From: Couchioplanes caeruleus | GTDB taxonomy: Bacteria; Actinomycetota; Actinomycetes; Mycobacteriales; Micromonosporaceae | NCBI RefSeq assembly: GCF_023499255.1 | Contig: NZ_CP092183.1 | Span: 5,762,501-5,826,500 of the forward strand | Reading direction: 5' to 3' | Length of the DNA stretch: 64,000 bases | Part shown: positions 33,301-59,353 of the stretch, piece by piece | Layout: every line of letters starts with the position of its first letter | Position numbering within the stretch: position 1 is the first letter of the stretch | Program-made: the position numbers and the translations under genes | Notes under the pieces: model-generated | Told to the model about the DNA's origin: nothing | What the model saw: only the letters and a program-made list of their open reading frames with translations | The model's database searches: none

Positions 33301-33798
33301 TCAGGCGGACTCCGCCCACCGGCGCCACCACTGGGCGTCGGTCACCTCGCCCGACGCCTCCACGAGGGCCTCCACGACGGAGGCGAACGCCCGGGGCCGG
33401 GTCATCGACAGCTCCCCGACGAGCCCGGCGATCTCGGTGGCGCGCCGGCGCATGACCTCTCCGACGAGGTCCCGTCCGGCTGGCGTCAGCGTCACCCACG
33501 CGGCACGCCGGTCGTCGTCGCGGTTACGGCGGGCCACGAGCCCCTTGCGGACCAGGCGGTTGCACATCCGGGTGGCGGTCGAGGAGGTCACTCCGAGCTC
33601 CTGCGCCAGATCGACGACCCGCTGCGGCCCGGGCGACACCAGCAGGACCAGAGTCCGGTACTGCGCCAGCGTGACGTCCTCGTCCAGCCCGGCGAGCGAC
33701 CGCGCGGCGAGGCCGACGAAGGCCCGGCTGAGCGCGAGCAGACTTGCTGTCACCTGCTGTTCGGCCTCGTCGCGCGCATCGGCGGCGGGAACGGTCAT
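33301..33798 (-). CDS. MarR family transcriptional regulator
   Basis: 165 residues from the ATG at 33798. Winged helix-turn-helix: LAQYRTLVLLVSPGPQRVVDLAQELGVTSSTATRMCNRLVRKGLV (recognition helix SSTATRMCNRL), then the wing RRNRDDDRRAAWVTLTPAGRDLV, flanked by the dimerisation helices. The first 90 or so codons overlap the tail of the sigma-STAS reading frame (same strand, different frame), so transcription from the sigma gene would include this gene. The ligand is unknown. No strong ribosome site is seen, and the frame is open to 33870. Confidence 0.83.
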   Translation of the reverse strand: MTVPAADARDEAEQQVTASLLALSRAFVGLAARSLAGLDEDVTLAQYRTLVLLVSPGPQRVVDLAQELGVTSSTATRMCNRLVRKGLVARRNRDDDRRAAWVTLTPAGRDLVGEVMRRRATEIAGLVGELSMTRPRAFASVVEALVEASGEVTDAQWWRRWAESA

Positions 33799-35239
33799 GG
33801 CCACACTGTGGCACAGCGGGCCGGGCTGTCGCGGGACGGGCCGCACGACGGCAATGGCCACCCCTGACACCGGGTGCGGTCACGGACGCCCTGCCCCCGG
33901 CCTCAGCCGGCGCGCATCCCGGCGGAGGGGTGCGCGGCCGCTGTGCTGCCTCCGCCGGTGCCGTCCATGCCGGACGACCGAGCCTGCCCGCGGCCGTCCG
34001 GACCGCGCGGGGGACGTCGGGGGCGTCGACGGGCGAGCCCGGGGGCGTGGTGCGTACCGGGTCGTCGCCGTGGTCGTCGCGATGAGGGGCGGCAGTGCTG
34101 AGCGGCCGGCAGGCCAGCAGCCGGGTCACCCCGAGCCGGCAGAGCGCGTCGTACAGCGGTGCCGGCACGTTCACCGCGGCAAGACGCGCCCCGCCGGCCC
34201 GGTACGCGTCCACCAGCGCCCGGGCGGCCGCCGGCGCAGCCACCTGCGCCTGCCGGAGGTCCACGATGACGCGTCCCCGCCGGGTGCCGACGACCGTGTC
34301 CACGAGCGCCCGGCGCAGCGTCGACGGCTCCACATCACCGCGGACCGTCACGACAGCTGCCTGCCGGGCGTCGTCCACGCTGATGCCCGTTCCCGCGTAG
34401 GACGGCGCGGCGGGCGGCTCGGCGGGGTCGTCGAGCCCGTGACGGAGCCGGTCGAGGATCCGGCGCAGGAGCCGGGAGACGTTCATCTGCGACATGCCGA
34501 GATCGGTGGCGATCCGTTCCTGGGTCATGTTCCCGAAGAAGTACAGGCAGAGGATCTGACGGTCCCGGTCCGGGAGGTCCCGTACCAGGTCGCGCAGGAC
34601 CAGCTTGTCGCACATCGACAGCAGGGCACCGTCTTCGGCACCGACGAACTCGTGCCGCTCGGCGGCGTCGTCCGCGCCGGGCACCTTGGCGTTCAGCGAG
34701 CTCACGTCGTAGACCGTGGCGGCGCCCAACGCCTCCACGACCTCATGATCGGCGATCCCGAGCGCCGCCCCGATCTCCGTGATGCCGGGTGCCCGCCGCA
34801 GGCGCTGGACGAGCGCGGCCTTCGTTCGGGTGACGGCGAGATACCGCTCCTGCAGCCGGCGGGGCACGTGCACGTCCCACCCGTGGTCGCGGAAGTGCCG
34901 CTTGAGCTCCCCGGTGACCGTGGGGATGAGGTAGCCGAAGAACGGCCTGCCGCGCGCCGGGTCGAATCCGTCCACGGCCTTGACCAGCCCCAGCGCAGCC
35001 ACCTGCCGCAGGTCGTCGGCGCACTGGCCGCGGTTCAGGTACCGGCAGGTCAGCCGGTACGCGAGCGGCAGGTTGAGCTCGATGATCCGGGCCCGGATCC
35101 GCCGTCGTTCGCCGCCGTCGGCCGCATCGGCCATCCTTCGGAACAGCGCTGCCGTCGCGCGTTCCGTGTCGTCCACGGAGCCGTGCGGCGCCCGTTCATC
35201 ACCGGGCGCGGGCACGGCACCAGCATCCTGAAGTGTCAC
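33524..35239 (-). CDS. SigB/SigF-family RNA polymerase sigma factor fused to a STAS domain
   Basis: 571 residues from the GTG at 35239 (CGGAGGAG 6 nt upstream). Residues about 45-265 are a group 3 sigma factor: region 2 with CADDLRQVAALGLVKAVDGFDPARGRPFFGYLIPTVTGELKRHFRD, region 3, and region 4 ending in NMTQERIATDLGMSQMNVSRLL (helix-turn-helix). Residues 285-380 are a STAS (anti-anti-sigma) domain, but where the phosphorylatable DSS/DST motif should be it reads QVAAPAAAR. Residues 381-571 are a disordered Pro/Arg/Ala tail whose last 90 codons overlap the MarR gene out of frame. The second copy is at 48007-50502. It probably directs GTTT-N15-17-GGGTA promoters such as those marked in this window. 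Confidence 0.85.
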   Translation of the reverse strand: MTLQDAGAVPAPGDERAPHGSVDDTERATAALFRRMADAADGGERRRIRARIIELNLPLAYRLTCRYLNRGQCADDLRQVAALGLVKAVDGFDPARGRPFFGYLIPTVTGELKRHFRDHGWDVHVPRRLQERYLAVTRTKAALVQRLRRAPGITEIGAALGIADHEVVEALGAATVYDVSSLNAKVPGADDAAERHEFVGAEDGALLSMCDKLVLRDLVRDLPDRDRQILCLYFFGNMTQERIATDLGMSQMNVSRLLRRILDRLRHGLDDPAEPPAAPSYAGTGISVDDARQAAVVTVRGDVEPSTLRRALVDTVVGTRRGRVIVDLRQAQVAAPAAARALVDAYRAGGARLAAVNVPAPLYDALCRLGVTRLLACRPLSTAAPHRDDHGDDPVRTTPPGSPVDAPDVPRAVRTAAGRLGRPAWTAPAEAAQRPRTPPPGCAPAEAGGRASVTAPGVRGGHCRRAARPATARPAVPQCGHDRSRRRCARRGRTAGDSKSARAQPGLRRPRRAVARRAGRGRHAGAVPDSGPAGVARAAAGRRSGAGARSDLLDRHPDVQPPGPQGARGPP

Positions 35240-35504
35240 GAGTCTCCTCCGAGCGACAGGGAGAAGCCACCGGACCGGGTCCGGTGAGCGAGGGAGGCGT
35301 GGGCAGACCACGTGGGGAGGCGACCGGCGAGCCGGCGGAGAAGGCGGCCACGCGGGGCACGCCGCTACGACACCGGCTGTCCGGACCCGCCCGGCAGGCG
35401 CATCCGCGGGGATGCATGGCGCCGCTGTCTCGACGCCGCGGGGCGAGCTCGCCTGTGGCCATTCCCCCGCCGCCGGGGCCGAAACATCCCGGCTTCGCCG
35501 CCGG

Positions 35505-36512
35505 TCAGTGCACCGCGTCCCAGCCGCGCCCGTCTCCGAGCACCAGCCGGTGCAGAGCCCGCCGGCGCTCCGCCCCGGCGTCGGCTTCGGCGCGGAAGAC
35601 CTCCTCCGGCACCGTCGGCATGCCGGAGCCGGCCAGCACCGCACGGTCCGACAGGGGTGGTACGGGCGGTTCCGCCGGTACCGCCGACGTCATCGCCACG
35701 GTGGAGACGTACCGGTCCACGGCGGCCCGCACGGGTGAGGTGACGCTGTCGTCGGGACGGACGTCGGGCCGCAGCGCAGCGCTGAGCAGCAGCATCGCGT
35801 CGTCGAGCCGGGCCACGGCGATCGGTGCGGAGACCAGCACGCTGCGGCTGCGGAAATAGTGCAGAGCCGGGTACGCCAGGTGCTGCTCGGCCACGACGGA
35901 CAACTGCCCGGTCAGCGACACCAGGTGCTGGACGAAGGCGGAGCTGACGCCGCTCCCCGTCCAGCCCCGCCGGGCGATGTCGGCGGCGTCGCGGCCGAGC
36001 GCGTGGATGCGCACGGCGACCGCCCGGCGGCCGACGACCGCCGCCACGACGGAGACCAGGTACGTGATCGCCAGGGTGACCAGGAAGAGCCCGGTGAACG
36101 TGGAGACCGCGGTGAGGATCCGCCACGGCGTGCCCCCGGCCACGTAGTCGCCCACGCCGAGGGTGAAGATCGTGAACCCGGCGTAGTAGACGACCCCGGT
36201 CCAGCCGGCCGCGGCCCCCGTCCTGGCGTCCACCACGGCACCGTGCCCGCCGAGCAGGATCAGCGACCACCCGGCCCACAGCAGGGCCACCCAGACCATC
36301 ACGGTGCTGATCAGGATCGCGGCGCCGGCGCCGCCGAGCAGCGCCGGCGCGCGGCCGCCCCGGAAGATCCGGAGGAGCAGCCGCCACAACCAACCCATGA
36401 CCCGCCGGGTGAGCGGCCCGCCGCCCGCACCGACGACGAGCGTGGTGGCGAACGCGTCGGCGAACGTGACGACGATGATCAGCGCACCGGCGATCAGGCT
36501 GAGGACGTGCAC
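35505..36512 (-). CDS. Potassium channel family protein
   Basis: 335 residues. Hydrophobic segments near 5-27, 60-85 and 130-160, with a pore loop VYYAGFTIFTLGVGDYVAGG, where TLGVGDY matches the K+ selectivity filter (TxGxGD). A cytosolic helical C-terminal part of about 170 residues has no RCK (nucleotide-binding) signature. The start is a GTG after GAGGGACGAAG, 19 nt downstream of the htrA stop, so both genes are one transcript. It would let K+ (or another cation) cross the membrane; gating is unknown. Confidence 0.82.
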   Translation of the reverse strand: MHVLSLIAGALIIVVTFADAFATTLVVGAGGGPLTRRVMGWLWRLLLRIFRGGRAPALLGGAGAAILISTVMVWVALLWAGWSLILLGGHGAVVDARTGAAAGWTGVVYYAGFTIFTLGVGDYVAGGTPWRILTAVSTFTGLFLVTLAITYLVSVVAAVVGRRAVAVRIHALGRDAADIARRGWTGSGVSSAFVQHLVSLTGQLSVVAEQHLAYPALHYFRSRSVLVSAPIAVARLDDAMLLLSAALRPDVRPDDSVTSPVRAAVDRYVSTVAMTSAVPAEPPVPPLSDRAVLAGSGMPTVPEEVFRAEADAGAERRRALHRLVLGDGRGWDAVH

Positions 36513-48006: not shown

Positions 48007-48996
48007 TCACCGTCGCCGGGCCAGACCCACGCCGGCGACGGCCGTAGCGGCGGCACCGGCGACTGCCAGCCGGTGCATCGACACCCACGACCAGATGTCG
48101 CGCGACTTCGCCTGGGCGTCGAACATGCCGTGCGCGCCCCGATCGGCACGGTCGTCGCGGGGTTCGAAGACGTTGCTGCCGTACCGGGGACCCTGCGCGT
48201 TCGTCAGCTGGCCACCCACCGTCTTACGGGCCATGTACCAGTCCAGGAACCAGGGCGCGACCCGGTTCCCCAGGATCGTGTACGCGGTGGGCACCCCGAC
48301 CCACATGTTGCGCCTCGGATGCTCGGCCAGGAACCGGACGGCCCGCGCGGCGATCTCCGGCTGGAACACCGGCGGCACCGGCTGCGGATGCTCGTCGAAG
48401 TTCGTGGCGTTCCAATCGAACTGGACGGTGTTGACGCCCGGCAGCTGCACCATGCAGACCCGGACCGCGCTGCCGCAGTGCTTCAACTCGGTGATCACAC
48501 TCTCCGTGAAGCCCTTGACCGCGTGCTTGGCTCCGCAGTACGCCGCCTGCAGCGGGATCCCCCGGAACGCGAGCGCGCTGCCCACCTGCACGATGACCCC
48601 CCGGTCGCGCGGGCGCATGAGCTCCAGCGCCACCCGCGTGCCGTTCACCTGGCCGAAGTAGGTGACCTCGGTGATCCGCCGGTACTCCGGCTCCGGGATG
48701 TCCCAGAAGTACCGCAGGTCACCGGCGAACGCGTCATTGACCCACAGGTCGATCGGTCCCAGCTCGCTCTCTGCCCGGGCGGCCGCGGACCGGACCTGGG
48801 CCAGGTCGGCCACATCGGTCGGTACGCCCAGCCCGCGGCGGCCGGCGGCCTCGACGTCCTCGACGGCGCCCTGGAGCCCGGCCCGGCCCCGGGCGAGCAC
48901 CGCCACGTCCCATCCGTGCCCGGCCAGCTCCCGGACGACGGCCCGGCCGACACCTGCGGTGCCACCGGTCACAACGGCTGTTCGACGCTCTGTCAC
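48007..48996 (-). CDS. Short-chain dehydrogenase/reductase (internal start of the sigma-STAS-SDR frame)
   Basis: 329 residues if translated from the GTG at 48996, which has TGGAGGG 7 nt upstream. SDR fold with TGGTAGVGRAVVREL (cofactor loop), an N-D-A-F segment where NNAG is usual, and the active site GSALAFRGIPLQAAYCGAKHA (Ser, then YxxxK). The C-terminal 90 residues include an extension ending in a hydrophobic anchor-like stretch (LAVAGAAATAVAGVGLARRR). The same frame is open without any stop up to the sigma factor start at 50502, so this may be the separately made form of a larger protein. Substrate unknown. Confidence 0.8.
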   Translation of the reverse strand: MTERRTAVVTGGTAGVGRAVVRELAGHGWDVAVLARGRAGLQGAVEDVEAAGRRGLGVPTDVADLAQVRSAAARAESELGPIDLWVNDAFAGDLRYFWDIPEPEYRRITEVTYFGQVNGTRVALELMRPRDRGVIVQVGSALAFRGIPLQAAYCGAKHAVKGFTESVITELKHCGSAVRVCMVQLPGVNTVQFDWNATNFDEHPQPVPPVFQPEIAARAVRFLAEHPRRNMWVGVPTAYTILGNRVAPWFLDWYMARKTVGGQLTNAQGPRYGSNVFEPRDDRADRGAHGMFDAQAKSRDIWSWVSMHRLAVAGAAATAVAGVGLARRR

Positions 48997-50502
48997 TTTG
49001 TTTCCCTCCATGACGTGCTGGGTTTCCACCTCCGGCCGGGCCGGACGGCCCGGACCGCTTCGCCGGTCCGCGGCCGGAGGCGGGCGCCCCCGGCCGGCCC
49101 CGGGTCGCCGGGGCGGGCGCCACCGCGTGGATGCCCCGGGCCCGGCAGCGGCCGGCGGGCTCTCCTGCGGGAACAGCGCCATGCCCGGCCGCGGCAGTGT
49201 TCGAGCCGGGACAGGCGGCAGGAGCCGGACGATCGGCGAGGCCGGCATACGGACCCGGCTCGTCCCCGGGCACGGACGAGTGGCGGTGCGCGGCTGCGAT
49301 TCCGGCGCGACCGCAGCGGCGACGGTGGGGGGCGTATCGGGGTGCGCGGTCGCGCGGTCCGGGGCGACGAGGCCCCGGCACGACACGAAGCGGGTGATGC
49401 CGGTACGCCGCAGCAGCGTCATCAGGTCGGCGGCCACGTTGACCACACACAGTCGCGCACCCACGTGCCCGGCGGCGCTGTACGCGGCCATCAGCGCCCG
49501 CGCCACGGCTGGGCCCGGCTCCCGCAGGCGACGCAGGTCCACCACCAGCGTCCGGGGCCGGCGGCTGACCAGCGCGTTCACCAGGCCGTCACGCAACTCC
49601 GCGGCCTGCGGAGCCGGCGCGCCGATCACCGTGGCGACGAGGCAGCCCGGCTGCGCCTCGTACGTGTGCACCCGCACGCCCGCGCGGGCCGCCTCCGGCG
49701 CTGCCGGGGCAAGCCGTGACCGCAGCCGTGCCAACGCCTGGTTGAGCAGGCGGGACACGCTCATCTGAGAGGTGCCGAGCTCGGTGGCGATCTCGTCCTG
49801 GGTGCGGTTGTCGAAGAAGTACCGGCGTACCGCGTAACGGGCGCGATCGGGCAGGCCGCGGATCGCCGGTTCCAGCATGACGCGGTCGACGGCCGATTCC
49901 AGGCCGGCGTCCACGGCGCCCAGCAGCTCCTGACGCTCGCACGGGTCGTCGGCCGGGCCCACGGGCTTGTTGAGGGAATCGGCGCGGTAGGCGACTGCCC
50001 CGGCGAACGCGGCGCGAACGTCCTCCTCCGTGATCCCCAGCAGGTCCGCGATCTGCGCGGCCGCCGGTTCCCGGTGCAGGCGCTGCAGCAGATCCGCGCG
50101 GGCGCGCGTGACGTCGAGGCAGCGCTCCTGCAACTGCCGGGGCAGGTGCACGCTCCAGGTCCGGTCGCGGAAGTGGCGCTTCAGCTCGCCGAGGATCGTC
50201 GGGAACGCGTACCCCGCGAAACTGGTCCCCCGCGCGGGGTCGAACCCGTCGACCGCCTTCACCAGGGCGAGCGACGCGACCTGCACGAGATCCTCGATCG
50301 GCTCCCCGCGGTCGGCGTAGGTTCGCGCCAGGTGCCGCGCGAGCGGCAGTTCCCGGCGGATCACCTCCTGCCGCAGCTGTTCGCGCCGCGACGGCGGGCA
50401 GCCCGGCTCACGCATCGCGCGGATCGCATCGATCGTGGCACCGTCGCGCGCGGCTCCGCCGTGGCCGGGTGCGGAGCGGGGTGCAGCAGCGAGCGAGGAC
50501 AT
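48007..50502 (-). CDS. SigB/SigF-family sigma factor, STAS domain and SDR in one reading frame
   Basis: 831 codons from the ATG at 50502 (AGGAGG 4 nt upstream) without a stop. Residues 40-265: sigma factor with DLVQVASLALVKAVDGFDPARG and region 4 NRTQDEIATELGTSQMSVSRLL. Residues 275-375: STAS domain whose phosphorylation motif is replaced by LREPGPAVARA. Residues 380-500: Pro/Arg-rich linker. Residues 503-831: the dehydrogenase. I checked the linker in triplets from 48961 to 49440 and found no TTA, CTA or TCA on the plus strand in frame. Either a true three-domain fusion, with a second start for the SDR, or a lost stop codon. Paralogue of the protein at 33524-35239. Confidence 0.72.
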   Translation of the reverse strand: MSSLAAAPRSAPGHGGAARDGATIDAIRAMREPGCPPSRREQLRQEVIRRELPLARHLARTYADRGEPIEDLVQVASLALVKAVDGFDPARGTSFAGYAFPTILGELKRHFRDRTWSVHLPRQLQERCLDVTRARADLLQRLHREPAAAQIADLLGITEEDVRAAFAGAVAYRADSLNKPVGPADDPCERQELLGAVDAGLESAVDRVMLEPAIRGLPDRARYAVRRYFFDNRTQDEIATELGTSQMSVSRLLNQALARLRSRLAPAAPEAARAGVRVHTYEAQPGCLVATVIGAPAPQAAELRDGLVNALVSRRPRTLVVDLRRLREPGPAVARALMAAYSAAGHVGARLCVVNVAADLMTLLRRTGITRFVSCRGLVAPDRATAHPDTPPTVAAAVAPESQPRTATRPCPGTSRVRMPASPIVRLLPPVPARTLPRPGMALFPQESPPAAAGPGASTRWRPPRRPGAGRGRPPPAADRRSGPGRPARPEVETQHVMEGNKVTERRTAVVTGGTAGVGRAVVRELAGHGWDVAVLARGRAGLQGAVEDVEAAGRRGLGVPTDVADLAQVRSAAARAESELGPIDLWVNDAFAGDLRYFWDIPEPEYRRITEVTYFGQVNGTRVALELMRPRDRGVIVQVGSALAFRGIPLQAAYCGAKHAVKGFTESVITELKHCGSAVRVCMVQLPGVNTVQFDWNATNFDEHPQPVPPVFQPEIAARAVRFLAEHPRRNMWVGVPTAYTILGNRVAPWFLDWYMARKTVGGQLTNAQGPRYGSNVFEPRDDRADRGAHGMFDAQAKSRDIWSWVSMHRLAVAGAAATAVAGVGLARRR

Positions 50503-50733
50503 GGCGCCTCCTGAAGTTTCACACGGGAACGGCCGCGCGGCACCCATGGGGAACGGGTGCGGACGGGAATCAGGCATCGGAGCGGTGGCGCGGACGACGC
50601 CGCGACGGCTCATCACCCCGGGGCCGCGCAGGAGGGCCGATACGGCCCGGGGTGCCGGGGCTTGACACCGGCGGCCGGAGCTTCGGGTCGGGGATAACCG
50701 TGGCGGGGCGCAGGAAACCCGGCCCGGCGCTTC

Positions 50734-50875: not shown

Positions 50876-51175
50876 ATGACCACCAGCAGCCTGGTCACCG
50901 CCCTCGCCATCGGGCTGGCCGTGGGCCTCAGCGCCCGATGGATCCCACCCCGGCACCACGACACCCCCTGGTGGTTACCCGTGGCCGTCGCGGTCGCCGC
51001 CGCCATGCTCGCCACCGTCGTCACCCACCTCACCGGCGCCCGCACCACCGGGGTCGGCGCCACCGAGGTCCTGCTCCAGGTGCTCTTCGCCGCCACCGCG
51101 GTGACGCTGGTCGCGATGACCACGGACCGACGCGGAAAAGACCCCGGACACCACCGCACCAGCCGGCCCCGATGA
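50876..51175 (+). CDS. Small three-helix membrane protein
   Basis: 99 residues, hydrophobic segments SLVTALAIGLAVGLSARWI, WWLPVAVAVAAAMLATVVTHL and VLLQVLFAATAVTLVAM, and a basic tail. The length and Gly-rich helices recall the GlsB/YeaQ (transglycosylase-associated) group, but I do not see its signature, so this is left open. Its stop overlaps the ATG of the STAS gene (ATGA), so it is probably part of a stress-signalling operon. Confidence 0.65.
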   Translation: MTTSSLVTALAIGLAVGLSARWIPPRHHDTPWWLPVAVAVAAAMLATVVTHLTGARTTGVGATEVLLQVLFAATAVTLVAMTTDRRGKDPGHHRTSRPR

Positions 51176-51762
51176 CGGTCGTACCGGGAGCGGAGGGGGC
51201 AGCCGTCCTCATCTGCGACACCTGCGGCGGCCATGACAGCACCGTCGACGTCACCCGGGACAGGGACCTGGTCTGGCCGGTCGTCACCGCGCTCGGCTGG
51301 ACCGGATCAGCGTTCGCGACCGGGCCGCACCGATGCCCGCGGTGCAACGAGGTTCCCGGGACGGCCCGCTGGGAGCCGCGGGAGCACCACCCTGCCTCGC
51401 ACAGCGCGTCCTACGACCTGCGCACCCACGACGACGTCGACGCCGCGGCGATCACTCCGCTGGCCGATCTGGACGCGGTGCTGGCCGAGCGCCTGCGTGA
51501 CGACCTCATGCACGCGGCCACGGCGCACCGCCATGTCCTCGTGGACCTGCACGCCGTGCACTTCATCGACTCGGCGGCCCTGGGTCTGCTCGTCCGGGCC
51601 CGGCAGGAGGCCAAGCAGCACGGTGCGACGTTCGACCTCGTCGCACCGTCACGGTTCGTGCGGGCGGTTCTGCACACCATGCGGCTGGACAGCGTCTTCC
51701 GCACGTTCCCGGACATGCAGTCCGCAGTCGACACGGTGGCCGCCGCTGACGGCCGGTGGTGA
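51172..51762 (+). CDS. STAS domain protein with N-terminal zinc-ribbon-like segment
   Basis: 196 residues. Residues 15-70 contain CDTCGG and CPRCNE, two CxxC pairs about 37 residues apart, suggesting a zinc ribbon. Residues 95-190 are a STAS domain: HVLVDLHAVHFIDSAALGLLVRARQEAKQHGATFDLV, with the DSAALG loop close to the DSSGLG phosphorylation site of anti-anti-sigma factors. It could release a SigB/F-type sigma factor from its anti-sigma partner, and the metal site might sense redox or metal. Coupled to the membrane protein gene upstream. Confidence 0.8.
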   Translation: MTVVPGAEGAAVLICDTCGGHDSTVDVTRDRDLVWPVVTALGWTGSAFATGPHRCPRCNEVPGTARWEPREHHPASHSASYDLRTHDDVDAAAITPLADLDAVLAERLRDDLMHAATAHRHVLVDLHAVHFIDSAALGLLVRARQEAKQHGATFDLVAPSRFVRAVLHTMRLDSVFRTFPDMQSAVDTVAAADGRW

Positions 51763-54684: not shown

Positions 54685-55038
54685 TCAGCACGGGGCGACG
54701 GCGCCGGTCGACAGGTCGCTCAGCGCCCGGTCCCGGTCCGGATACACCGGGAAGGCCGTGTCGAGCATGGTCGCCGCGAGGGTCTGCCGCACCACCGGGC
54801 GCGGTGCGACGAGACACACCCGATGGCCGCGGCCGGCGGCGAGTTGCCGTGCCTCCACCAGAGCGCCCAGGCAGGTGCAGTCGATCAGTGTGACGTCGGT
54901 CAGGTCCACCAGCACGTCGGTGTTGCGTCGCACGGTGTCCGCCAGGCGGTCACGGAGCATCTCCACCGACTCGGCGTCAACGTCGCCGTGCAGCTCCACG
55001 AACCTCACCGCGGGGCCGCCGGAACAGTCCTGCCCCAT
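54685..55038 (-). CDS. STAS domain protein, anti-anti-sigma factor type
   Basis: 117 residues, a single STAS domain: VRFVELHGDVDAESVEMLRDRLADTV, then TDVLVDLTDVTLIDCTCLGALVEAR and HRVCLVAPRPVVRQTL. The phosphorylation loop DSSGLG reads DCTCLG, leaving a Thr as the only possible acceptor and adding two cysteines, which could allow redox control. Such a protein would bind an anti-sigma kinase and free a SigB/F-type sigma factor. ATG start with GAGGGGAA about 10 nt upstream; a GTCAT tandem repeat lies at 55159. Confidence 0.83.
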   Translation of the reverse strand: MGQDCSGGPAVRFVELHGDVDAESVEMLRDRLADTVRRNTDVLVDLTDVTLIDCTCLGALVEARQLAAGRGHRVCLVAPRPVVRQTLAATMLDTAFPVYPDRDRALSDLSTGAVAPC

Positions 55039-57474: not shown

Positions 57475-58019
57475 TCACCGATGCGCAGCGGTTCCCGGGA
57501 CAGCGAACCGTCGCCGCGAGGCACCCCGAGGGCCTCACCGTCGCGGGTGAACACCACCGAGTTGACGTCCTCCCGGGACGTCAGCGTGCAGACGATCTGG
57601 GCGTACGCGATGGTTTCGTCGCTGCGGGCGCCCTCCTCGTTGTCGGCGACCTCCACCCGCGCCTCGGTGCTGCCGGCCGGCACGCCGACCTTCAGCGTCG
57701 TCGTGGCAAGCGCCGTCGTCAGGCCACCGGCGCGTTCGGCCTCGGTGGGGCCGGCCACCAGCGCCTCGACGTGATGCTGCAAGCTCGGTGGCGCGCTGAC
57801 CCGGCGTACCGTCTGCACGAGGCGACCGTCGCGCACGAGACAGAGCACCTCGGTGACCTCCCCCGGCGGTTCCGTGCCGGCCGTCGTCGCCGTACGGCTG
57901 GTCAGCGGGTTCCGGGGCAGGTCGGCCTGGCGCGGCTCGTCCTCGGCCGGCAGGCCGCAGGCGGCGCTGAGCAGGCAGATCAGCAGGCCGGCGGTGAGCC
58001 GGCCGACGCGGCTTGTCAT
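57447..58019 (-). CDS. GerMN domain lipoprotein
   Basis: 190 residues. Lipobox LLSAAC (Cys 21), a Pro/Thr-rich linker, then a GerMN-type domain: TEVLCLVRDGRLVQTVRRV, SLQHHVEALVAGPTEAERAGGLTTAL, RVEVADNEEGA and IVCTLTSREDVNSVVFTRDGEALGVP. The ATG overlaps the histidine kinase stop (ATGA), an arrangement like mtrB-lpqB, where the lipoprotein modulates the kinase. The 3' end overlaps the ANTAR gene by 28 nt. Confidence 0.82.
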   Translation of the reverse strand: MTSRVGRLTAGLLICLLSAACGLPAEDEPRQADLPRNPLTSRTATTAGTEPPGEVTEVLCLVRDGRLVQTVRRVSAPPSLQHHVEALVAGPTEAERAGGLTTALATTTLKVGVPAGSTEARVEVADNEEGARSDETIAYAQIVCTLTSREDVNSVVFTRDGEALGVPRGDGSLSREPLRIGDYASLLAPA

Positions 58020-59353
58020 GGCAACTCCATCCGGAACCGGGCGCCGCCGCCGGGGCGGTCGCCGACGCTGACCACGCCGCCGTGGGCGGCGGCGTGCTGC
58101 GCCACGATGGACAGGCCCAGCCCGGTGCCGTCGTCGCCGCCGCGCGCGTTCGCCGCCGGGCCGCGGACGAACCGGTCGAATATCACCGTACGGTCATCCT
58201 GCGCCACGCCGGGACCCTCGTCGTCGACCTCGATGACCTGACTGTCGCCGGCGCGGCCGAGACGAACGGCCACGGGCCCACCGCCGTAGCGGACCGCGTT
58301 GTCGAGAAGGTTCCCCAGGGCCTGCTCCACCCGGCGGCGGTCCACCGACCAGACCTCGGGGGTGCCGGGCAGCACCTCGAGCAGCTCCTCGGACAGGCCG
58401 CGGCTGCGGCAGGCACGCCCGACCAGCTGGCGCATGTCGGTGGGCTCCCGATGCGCGGGCTGGTCGCTGCGAGCCAGCTCGAGCAGGTCGTCGACCAGAT
58501 CCTGGAAACGGTTGATCTCGTCGGTGATCAGGCCGATGGCCGCGGCCGCCTTCGGATCGAGTCCGTCGCGGCGCCGATCGACCACACTCGCGGCGGCGGA
58601 CAGCGTCTGCAGCGGTGAGCGCAGCTCGTGACTCACGTCGGCGGCGAAGCGCCGGTCGCGTTGCAGGCGCCGGGAGAGCTCGTCCGCCATGTGATTGAAC
58701 GAGATCGACAGCTGCGCCAGGTCCGGCTCGGTGTCCGGGTCGAGACGGGTCTCGAGGTCACCGTCGGCGATGTTGCGGGCCGCGGCGGCCACGGCGGTCA
58801 GCGGACGCAGCGCGTGCCGGGTGACGTAGAAGCCGACGGCCGCACCGGCGCCGGCGACCATGATCGCGACCGCGGTCAGCACGAGCGCGAGAAGTTGCAG
58901 CGTGCGGTCCAGCTCGGTGAGGGCCACCACCTCGTAGAAGACACCCGAGGAGAGCGGGATCCCGATGACCAGCGCCGCCTGACCATCCTGACGGATCCGC
59001 TGGACCCCCGCCTCACCCTGACTTGTCATCTCCTGCAGGTGCGCAGGCACGGCGGCGCCGGCCGACGCATCCGCGCCGCGCGAATACCACTGCCCGTCGC
59101 GATACAGCAGCACATACCGGTCCCCGCCCGTGTCGAGCGAGCGCAGCACCTCGCCCACGTCCGAGGAACGGCTCGGCAGCCCGGCGTCGACGTTGGCGGC
59201 GTCGAAATATGTGACGCGGACGGCCGTCCGTTCCCGTTCCTGGATCAGCGTGCTGCGGGCGAGCTCGTACGAGACCATCGAGACACAGCCCGACAACACC
59301 AGCGCCCCCACGGCGAAGGCAGCGCTGACCCGCGTCCGCAGTCCGATCTTCAC
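58016..59353 (-). CDS. Sensor histidine kinase (HAMP, HisKA, HATPase)
   Basis: 445 residues. Two membrane helices (about 8-28 and 150-175) enclose an extracellular sensor domain of 120 residues. HAMP domain follows, then the phosphoacceptor box FAADVSHELRSPLQTL (His near 240), N box ALGNLLDNAVRYG, G1 EVDDEGPGV and G2 GDDGTGLGLSIV. It has a likeness to MtrB in domain layout and in the following GerMN lipoprotein, but no response regulator gene is next to it. GTG start without a strong ribosome site. A GTCA(C/T) tandem site lies 90 nt upstream. Confidence 0.9.
   Translation of the reverse strand: MKIGLRTRVSAAFAVGALVLSGCVSMVSYELARSTLIQERERTAVRVTYFDAANVDAGLPSRSSDVGEVLRSLDTGGDRYVLLYRDGQWYSRGADASAGAAVPAHLQEMTSQGEAGVQRIRQDGQAALVIGIPLSSGVFYEVVALTELDRTLQLLALVLTAVAIMVAGAGAAVGFYVTRHALRPLTAVAAAARNIADGDLETRLDPDTEPDLAQLSISFNHMADELSRRLQRDRRFAADVSHELRSPLQTLSAAASVVDRRRDGLDPKAAAAIGLITDEINRFQDLVDDLLELARSDQPAHREPTDMRQLVGRACRSRGLSEELLEVLPGTPEVWSVDRRRVEQALGNLLDNAVRYGGGPVAVRLGRAGDSQVIEVDDEGPGVAQDDRTVIFDRFVRGPAANARGGDDGTGLGLSIVAQHAAAHGGVVSVGDRPGGGARFRMELP

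Follow-up and report, generated by a model that had tools for sequence, protein, structure and literature searches.

Domain organization of the open frame

On the minus strand of the 64,000-nucleotide stretch of the Couchioplanes caeruleus genome analysed here (the window), a single frame runs from an ATG at 50502 to a TGA ending at 48007 and translates into 831 residues with zero internal stops (Table 1). The ATG is closely preceded by AGGAGG; mechanical calling starts the open reading frame further back, at a GTG at 50616. The genome forms one contig of 8.42 Mb and is 100% complete by tool estimate.

The amino-terminal block comprises sigma-70 regions 2, 3 and 4 (residues 48–116, 129–169 and 213–261), matched above the Pfam cut-offs, and scores 231 bits with the NCBIfam SigBFG model, slightly below its cut-off of 234. 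The STAS domain behind it is weak: in a Pfam scan of the protein, STAS_2 and STAS give 24.5 and 20.1 bits, both below the curated cut-off, and in a genome scan a STAS match of 30.1 bits lies above the cut-off, its residues aligning with those of STAS-bearing relatives. The carboxy-terminal block is a PRK07109-type short-chain dehydrogenase (SDR), matched over residues 508–693 by Pfam and over residues 502–827 by NCBIfam (NF005495), the latter with 400 bits (cut-off 264). Classical SDRs carry the motifs TGxxxGxG and YxxxK, which the window SDR fits with TGGTAGVG and YCGAK. Codon use is of the coding type in both blocks, sigma–STAS and SDR. The end of the SDR (48007–48080, minus strand) is alanine-rich and weakly hydrophobic, with a maximal Kyte–Doolittle mean of 1.32 over 19 residues, and is then followed by arginines; this carboxy terminus is perhaps membrane-associated.

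Table 1 Features of the open frame in the window
Feature	Positions	Strand	Size or basis
Whole stop-free frame	48007–50502	−	831 residues
Sigma-B/F/G-type sigma factor, residues 41–264	49711–50382	−	NCBIfam SigBFG and Pfam sigma regions
STAS domain (weak), residues 299–373	49384–49608	−	Pfam and alignment with relatives
P/A/R-rich tail and linker, residues 377–502	48997–49374	−	Stop depletion, homology to the N. flavum tail, motif; codon score −0.23
Motif G-R-x-R-P-P-P, residues 470–476	49075–49095	−	
GGAGGG, likely SDR ribosome site, seven bases ahead of GTG 48996	49004–49009	−	
SDR	48007–48996	−	329 residues from GTG; Pfam, NCBIfam PRK07109

The SDR orthologues start at the same position as the window GTG. 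In the orthologues examined the PRK07109-type SDR is free-standing, whereas the window SDR shares a frame behind a sigma factor. An earlier note on this DNA had proposed the stop-free run from 50502 to 48007, the combination of sigma factor, STAS domain and SDR in one frame, and a separate SDR start at GTG 48996 with GGAGGG at 49009–49004; all are borne out, the STAS domain at the strength given above.

A sigma factor followed by a STAS domain is an architecture already known, from σSsdA of Actinoplanes missouriensis (Tezuka et al. 2023, PMC10733313). In excerpts of that report, σSsdA has 379 residues, with the sigma factor at 37–260 and STAS at 282–377, and is bound by SipA through its STAS domain. 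Both proteins are sigma-B/F/G-type factors with one STAS domain from Micromonosporaceae, and the positions of their domains are very similar; as excerpted, however, σSsdA stops right after STAS, whereas the window protein continues with a tail and the SDR. No sipA-like gene (STAS plus RsbW-like ATPase) was found adjacent to the window sigma gene among neighbours partly scanned with Pfam, and the window gene is therefore called SsdA-like and not equated with SsdA. The sole HATPase_c_2 match within the window is a histidine kinase (58016–59353). Two more STAS-domain genes lie close to the sigma gene, at 51172–51762 (plus strand) and 54685–55008 (minus strand).

At 44–46 nucleotides ahead of the SDR start, 6 of 11 orthologues (L056, L058, L059, L106, L107 and L110; 77–93% identical, window excluded) have the sigma-B-like box GGGTAC. 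The box resembles the −10 part of the σSsdA promoter motif GnTT-n14-CGGGTA as given in the same excerpts (PMC10733313), and one orthologue, L059, fits a loosened form of the full motif. The five others lack GGGTAC at that place; L105 has GGGTAG at −41, and L109 and L111 have related boxes near the start. The recurrence of GGGTAC in these six hints that in relatives the SDR is a stress-regulon gene. A promoter of this kind was also sought in the window, and the 400 nucleotides ahead of the SDR start contain no GGGTA box, so SDR output there may depend on the sigma transcript.

Orthologous loci and the tail behind the STAS domain

A search of 67 genomes at genus level, the window's own among them, yielded a sigma–STAS match of at least 70% identity in two other genomes (79% and 70%; loci L001 and L002). 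In Pseudosporangium ferrugineum (L002), the sigma–STAS gene ends in TAG after 554 residues and the GTG of the SDR follows 35 nucleotides on, in a different frame. In Nucisporomicrobium flavum (L001), it ends in TGA after 512 residues, and 2.8 kb with a BrkB-like and a protein kinase gene on the other strand lie between this stop and the downstream start of the SDR. The join is thus absent from both orthologous loci that hold the two genes, though the neighbourhood is common to them, and is present in one genome only. The same join, and with it a conserved sigma–STAS–SDR family, was likewise not found among 17 protein matches to residues 1–500, the longest of which has 614 residues (records from the source genome were possibly left out). 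Among 20 listed of 55 plasmid records, none reaches 80% query cover, and the best cover the SDR part. A general sigma–SDR neighbourhood was considered and rejected, as a sigma gene lies within 1.5 kb upstream at only 2 of 40 SDR loci, namely the window and P. ferrugineum.

The linker from residue 380 to the SDR start spans 366 nucleotides of 79.5% GC, and stops are absent from five of its six frames. No stop occurs in 43% of 5,000 dinucleotide shuffles of the linker or in 38% of 366-nucleotide frame windows across the 64 kb. Ahead of the orthologous SDRs at five loci the frame is open for 42 to 378 codons, and among 29 loci of more distant SDRs it exceeds 120 codons at 7. With such high GC, and with shuffles and other frames so commonly open (a chance of about 0.4), the absence of stops is by itself unremarkable.

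Codon scores of the tail are low in the window (Table 1), L001 (−0.48) and L002 (−0.32), compared with 0.33 to 0.50 for sigma and STAS, and the linker was initially read as plain intergenic spacer. That reading was dropped because of stop depletion, colinear tails and a shared motif. The depletion was counted over 13 sigma–STAS genes, being all those listed with a match reaching residue 371 or beyond, and none of the 13 has an in-frame stop within at least 73 codons behind STAS. Over the first 70 tail codons, stops number 0 of 910 in frame against 13 of 1,820 in the other two same-strand frames (Fisher p 0.007), a contrast whose independence is overstated by the kinship of the genes, although the other frames have the same history. 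Letter shuffles predict 6.0 tails open over 70 codons and 3.3 over 120 codons, against 13 and 10 of the 13 observed.

The tails of proteins P0002 and P0003 are 71.5% identical, with no indel as far as the motif; shuffled tails average 37%. The window tail matches that of N. flavum with 71.1 bits, where 60 codon shuffles reach at most 56.8. Its match to the P. ferrugineum tail (39.7 bits) is below the shuffled maximum of 45.4, and its identity with P0003 (42.4%) is not clearly above shuffles, which reach 42.9%; remaining pairs are mostly 32–45% identical, about the shuffled level. Of 15 proteins, 8 have the motif GRxRPPP in frame in the tail, namely the window protein and its seven best matches (P0002–P0008); the motif is missing from P0009–P0015. 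It arises in 0.1–0.3% of shuffled tails (six tails tested), a frequency that leaves uncounted the choice of the motif, picked from the alignment beforehand. Behind the motif, 18–48 residues lead to the stop of the sigma gene in the seven relatives and 26 to the SDR start in the window. Taken together, the tail is probably translated as a genuine part of the sigma–STAS protein, and since it resembles real protein, the window has probably lost only the stop behind it. In tails that show little conservation elsewhere, GRxRPPP sits close to the end and is a possible candidate for a short binding motif.

Other joined frames

A comparable run-on is present in a second genome of the same genus (G040), where an 888-residue frame at locus L130 (1618–4284, minus strand) contains sigma, STAS, tail, a trypsin-like domain and PDZ. 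Both this frame and that of the window consist of sigma, STAS and tail joined to the complete product of a downstream gene, the partner in L130 being a trypsin-like protease with PDZ, whose gene apparently has a lipoprotein-type start of its own. Joining to a protease argues against a specific sigma–redox link. The window itself holds a second sigma–STAS gene (33524–35644, minus strand), its sigma factor recognized by Pfam and its STAS domain only through alignment with the first; the frame extends 193 codons beyond STAS, over a MarR gene (33301–33870) in a different frame. The two cases suggest that this group of sigma–STAS genes tolerates run-on.

One further protein joins a sigma factor to an SDR. 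P0059, a metagenome protein of 744 residues represented by a single member sequence and known as protein only, has a sigma-B/F/G-type factor, a low-complexity linker and an SDR in one frame. Its SDR belongs to the same family as that of the window and is 52% identical to it, whereas P0059 has no STAS match. A sigma–SDR join has accordingly been observed at least twice, and a sigma gene lies directly ahead of such an SDR in three places (the window, P. ferrugineum and P0059), in two of them in frame. Among the best 120 of 261 and the best 120 of 531 matches (8,000 candidates scored each), sigma domains occur in P0059 only. At 29 further loci of P0059-like SDRs, no sigma gene lies immediately upstream; at one of them (L148) a sigma gene lies downstream, on the other strand. 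P0059 is hard to dismiss and counts toward a sigma–SDR link and against an accident, though it may itself be a further accident, a product of faulty annotation or a genuine signal. No sigma–SDR fusion appears among the literature titles found, which is not a claim of its absence from print.

Origin of the joined frame

The joined frame is quite probably a lineage-specific run-on, in which loss of a stop made one frame of a σSsdA-like sigma–STAS gene and an ordinary SDR gene, and the join was tolerated. The stop of the sigma gene, which in relatives lies 18–48 codons past GRxRPPP, would have been lost in this lineage; the GC-rich DNA would have given no replacement stop before the SDR, which happened to be in frame. 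Ribosomes arriving from the sigma gene would read on to make a sigma–STAS–SDR protein of 831 residues, GTG 48996 would still give free SDR, and sigma factor and dehydrogenase would work largely as before, the STAS domain as a presumed handle for an anti-sigma partner by analogy with σSsdA, and the SDR as the product of a putative stress-regulon gene, judging by the GGGTAC box of its orthologues. Overlapping neighbour genes that arose by stop loss are on record, as excerpts of PMC3887535 report.

If the sequence is right, no stop intervenes and the 831-residue product is expected; the joined protein is therefore likely to be made. The SDR has kept its start and ribosome site and the tail is coding-like, so the earlier note's idea of a three-domain protein together with a free SDR is plausible. 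Its further claim, that a sigma factor joined to a redox enzyme represents a new link between metabolism and transcription, finds no support, given separate genes in two of two relatives and the protease partner in L130, with P0059 pointing the other way. The search for the same join in relatives, which that note had proposed, found that in both orthologous loci a stop separates STAS from the SDR, the outcome it had named in advance as counting against its reading. To judge from these comparisons, the join looks like an evolutionary accident and not a control device, with no sign of regulatory use: the genes are separate in two close relatives, and the differing partners of run-on frames argue against a specific sigma–SDR device. 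Against the run-on account stand P0059, the spacer-like codon use of the tail and the tail matches to P0003 and L002, which remain at shuffle level.

So understood, the locus would be a natural example of gene fusion through stop codon loss, in which the loosely constrained tail of a protein in a very GC-rich genome can run into any following gene. It would show how joins arise, and that they need comparison with relatives before any function is assigned to them; should the cell make the joined protein in active form, one could readily test on it whether an enzyme attached to a sigma factor is tolerated or put to use.

The layout of P. ferrugineum, exactly that of two adjacent genes, is also what would underlie the window if a sequencing or assembly error, with a base dropped or added in the GC-rich DNA between the motif and the SDR, hid a stop or a frame change. 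Such an error is unlikely, although the window represents one genome with no second strain and another same-strand frame contains stops from about 49062 to 48972: the genome is a single contig, 100% complete by the tool figure, the motif keeps to the frame expected as far as 49075, and a search for a frameshift in the linker found the open frame clearly beaten by no other frame, except in one 30-codon window at 49122. A linker that in practice goes untranslated, because the transcript ends or is cut between the genes or because translation drops off, would mean that the proteins are never joined. The spacer-like codon use would fit, as would a stable predicted fold at 49157–49010 (z −1.9, equalled or bettered by 10 of 200 shuffles) and the end of σSsdA right behind STAS in the excerpts of PMC10733313. 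This reading is nevertheless very improbable in view of stop depletion, the colinear P0002 and P0003 tails and the motif; there is no stop codon for an ordinary end of translation, and L001 has no comparable fold (z +0.8). A terminator between the genes was rejected as a candidate, the fold standing weakly above shuffles in the window and L002 and not in L001.

The open frame, the intact domains, each with coding-type codon use, and P0059 would also be compatible with a selected sigma–STAS–SDR protein, whose dehydrogenase part would sense membrane state, substrate or cofactor and so set the activity of the sigma factor; the missing GGGTAC box, by which SDR output may hang on the sigma transcript, points the same way. 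Selection of this kind is highly doubtful when the join is missing from both orthologous loci, the SDR retains a start of its own, the run-on in L130 leads into a protease and no sigma gene lies directly upstream at the 29 loci of P0059-like SDRs. Scarcely more than a slim chance is accorded to its most specific form, in which STAS and the motif-bearing tail link the sigma factor covalently to an NAD(P)-dependent dehydrogenase that may associate with the membrane. Sigma activity would then be set by attachment to the membrane or by the binding of substrate or cofactor, and P0059 would be a second example that formed independently.

In the wider SDR family, four other proteins (P0029, P0031, P0039 and P0109) have SDRs framed with topoisomerase-type, PF14325, alpha/beta hydrolase and glycogen debranching domains, joins that may reflect either a promiscuous partner or run-on annotation.
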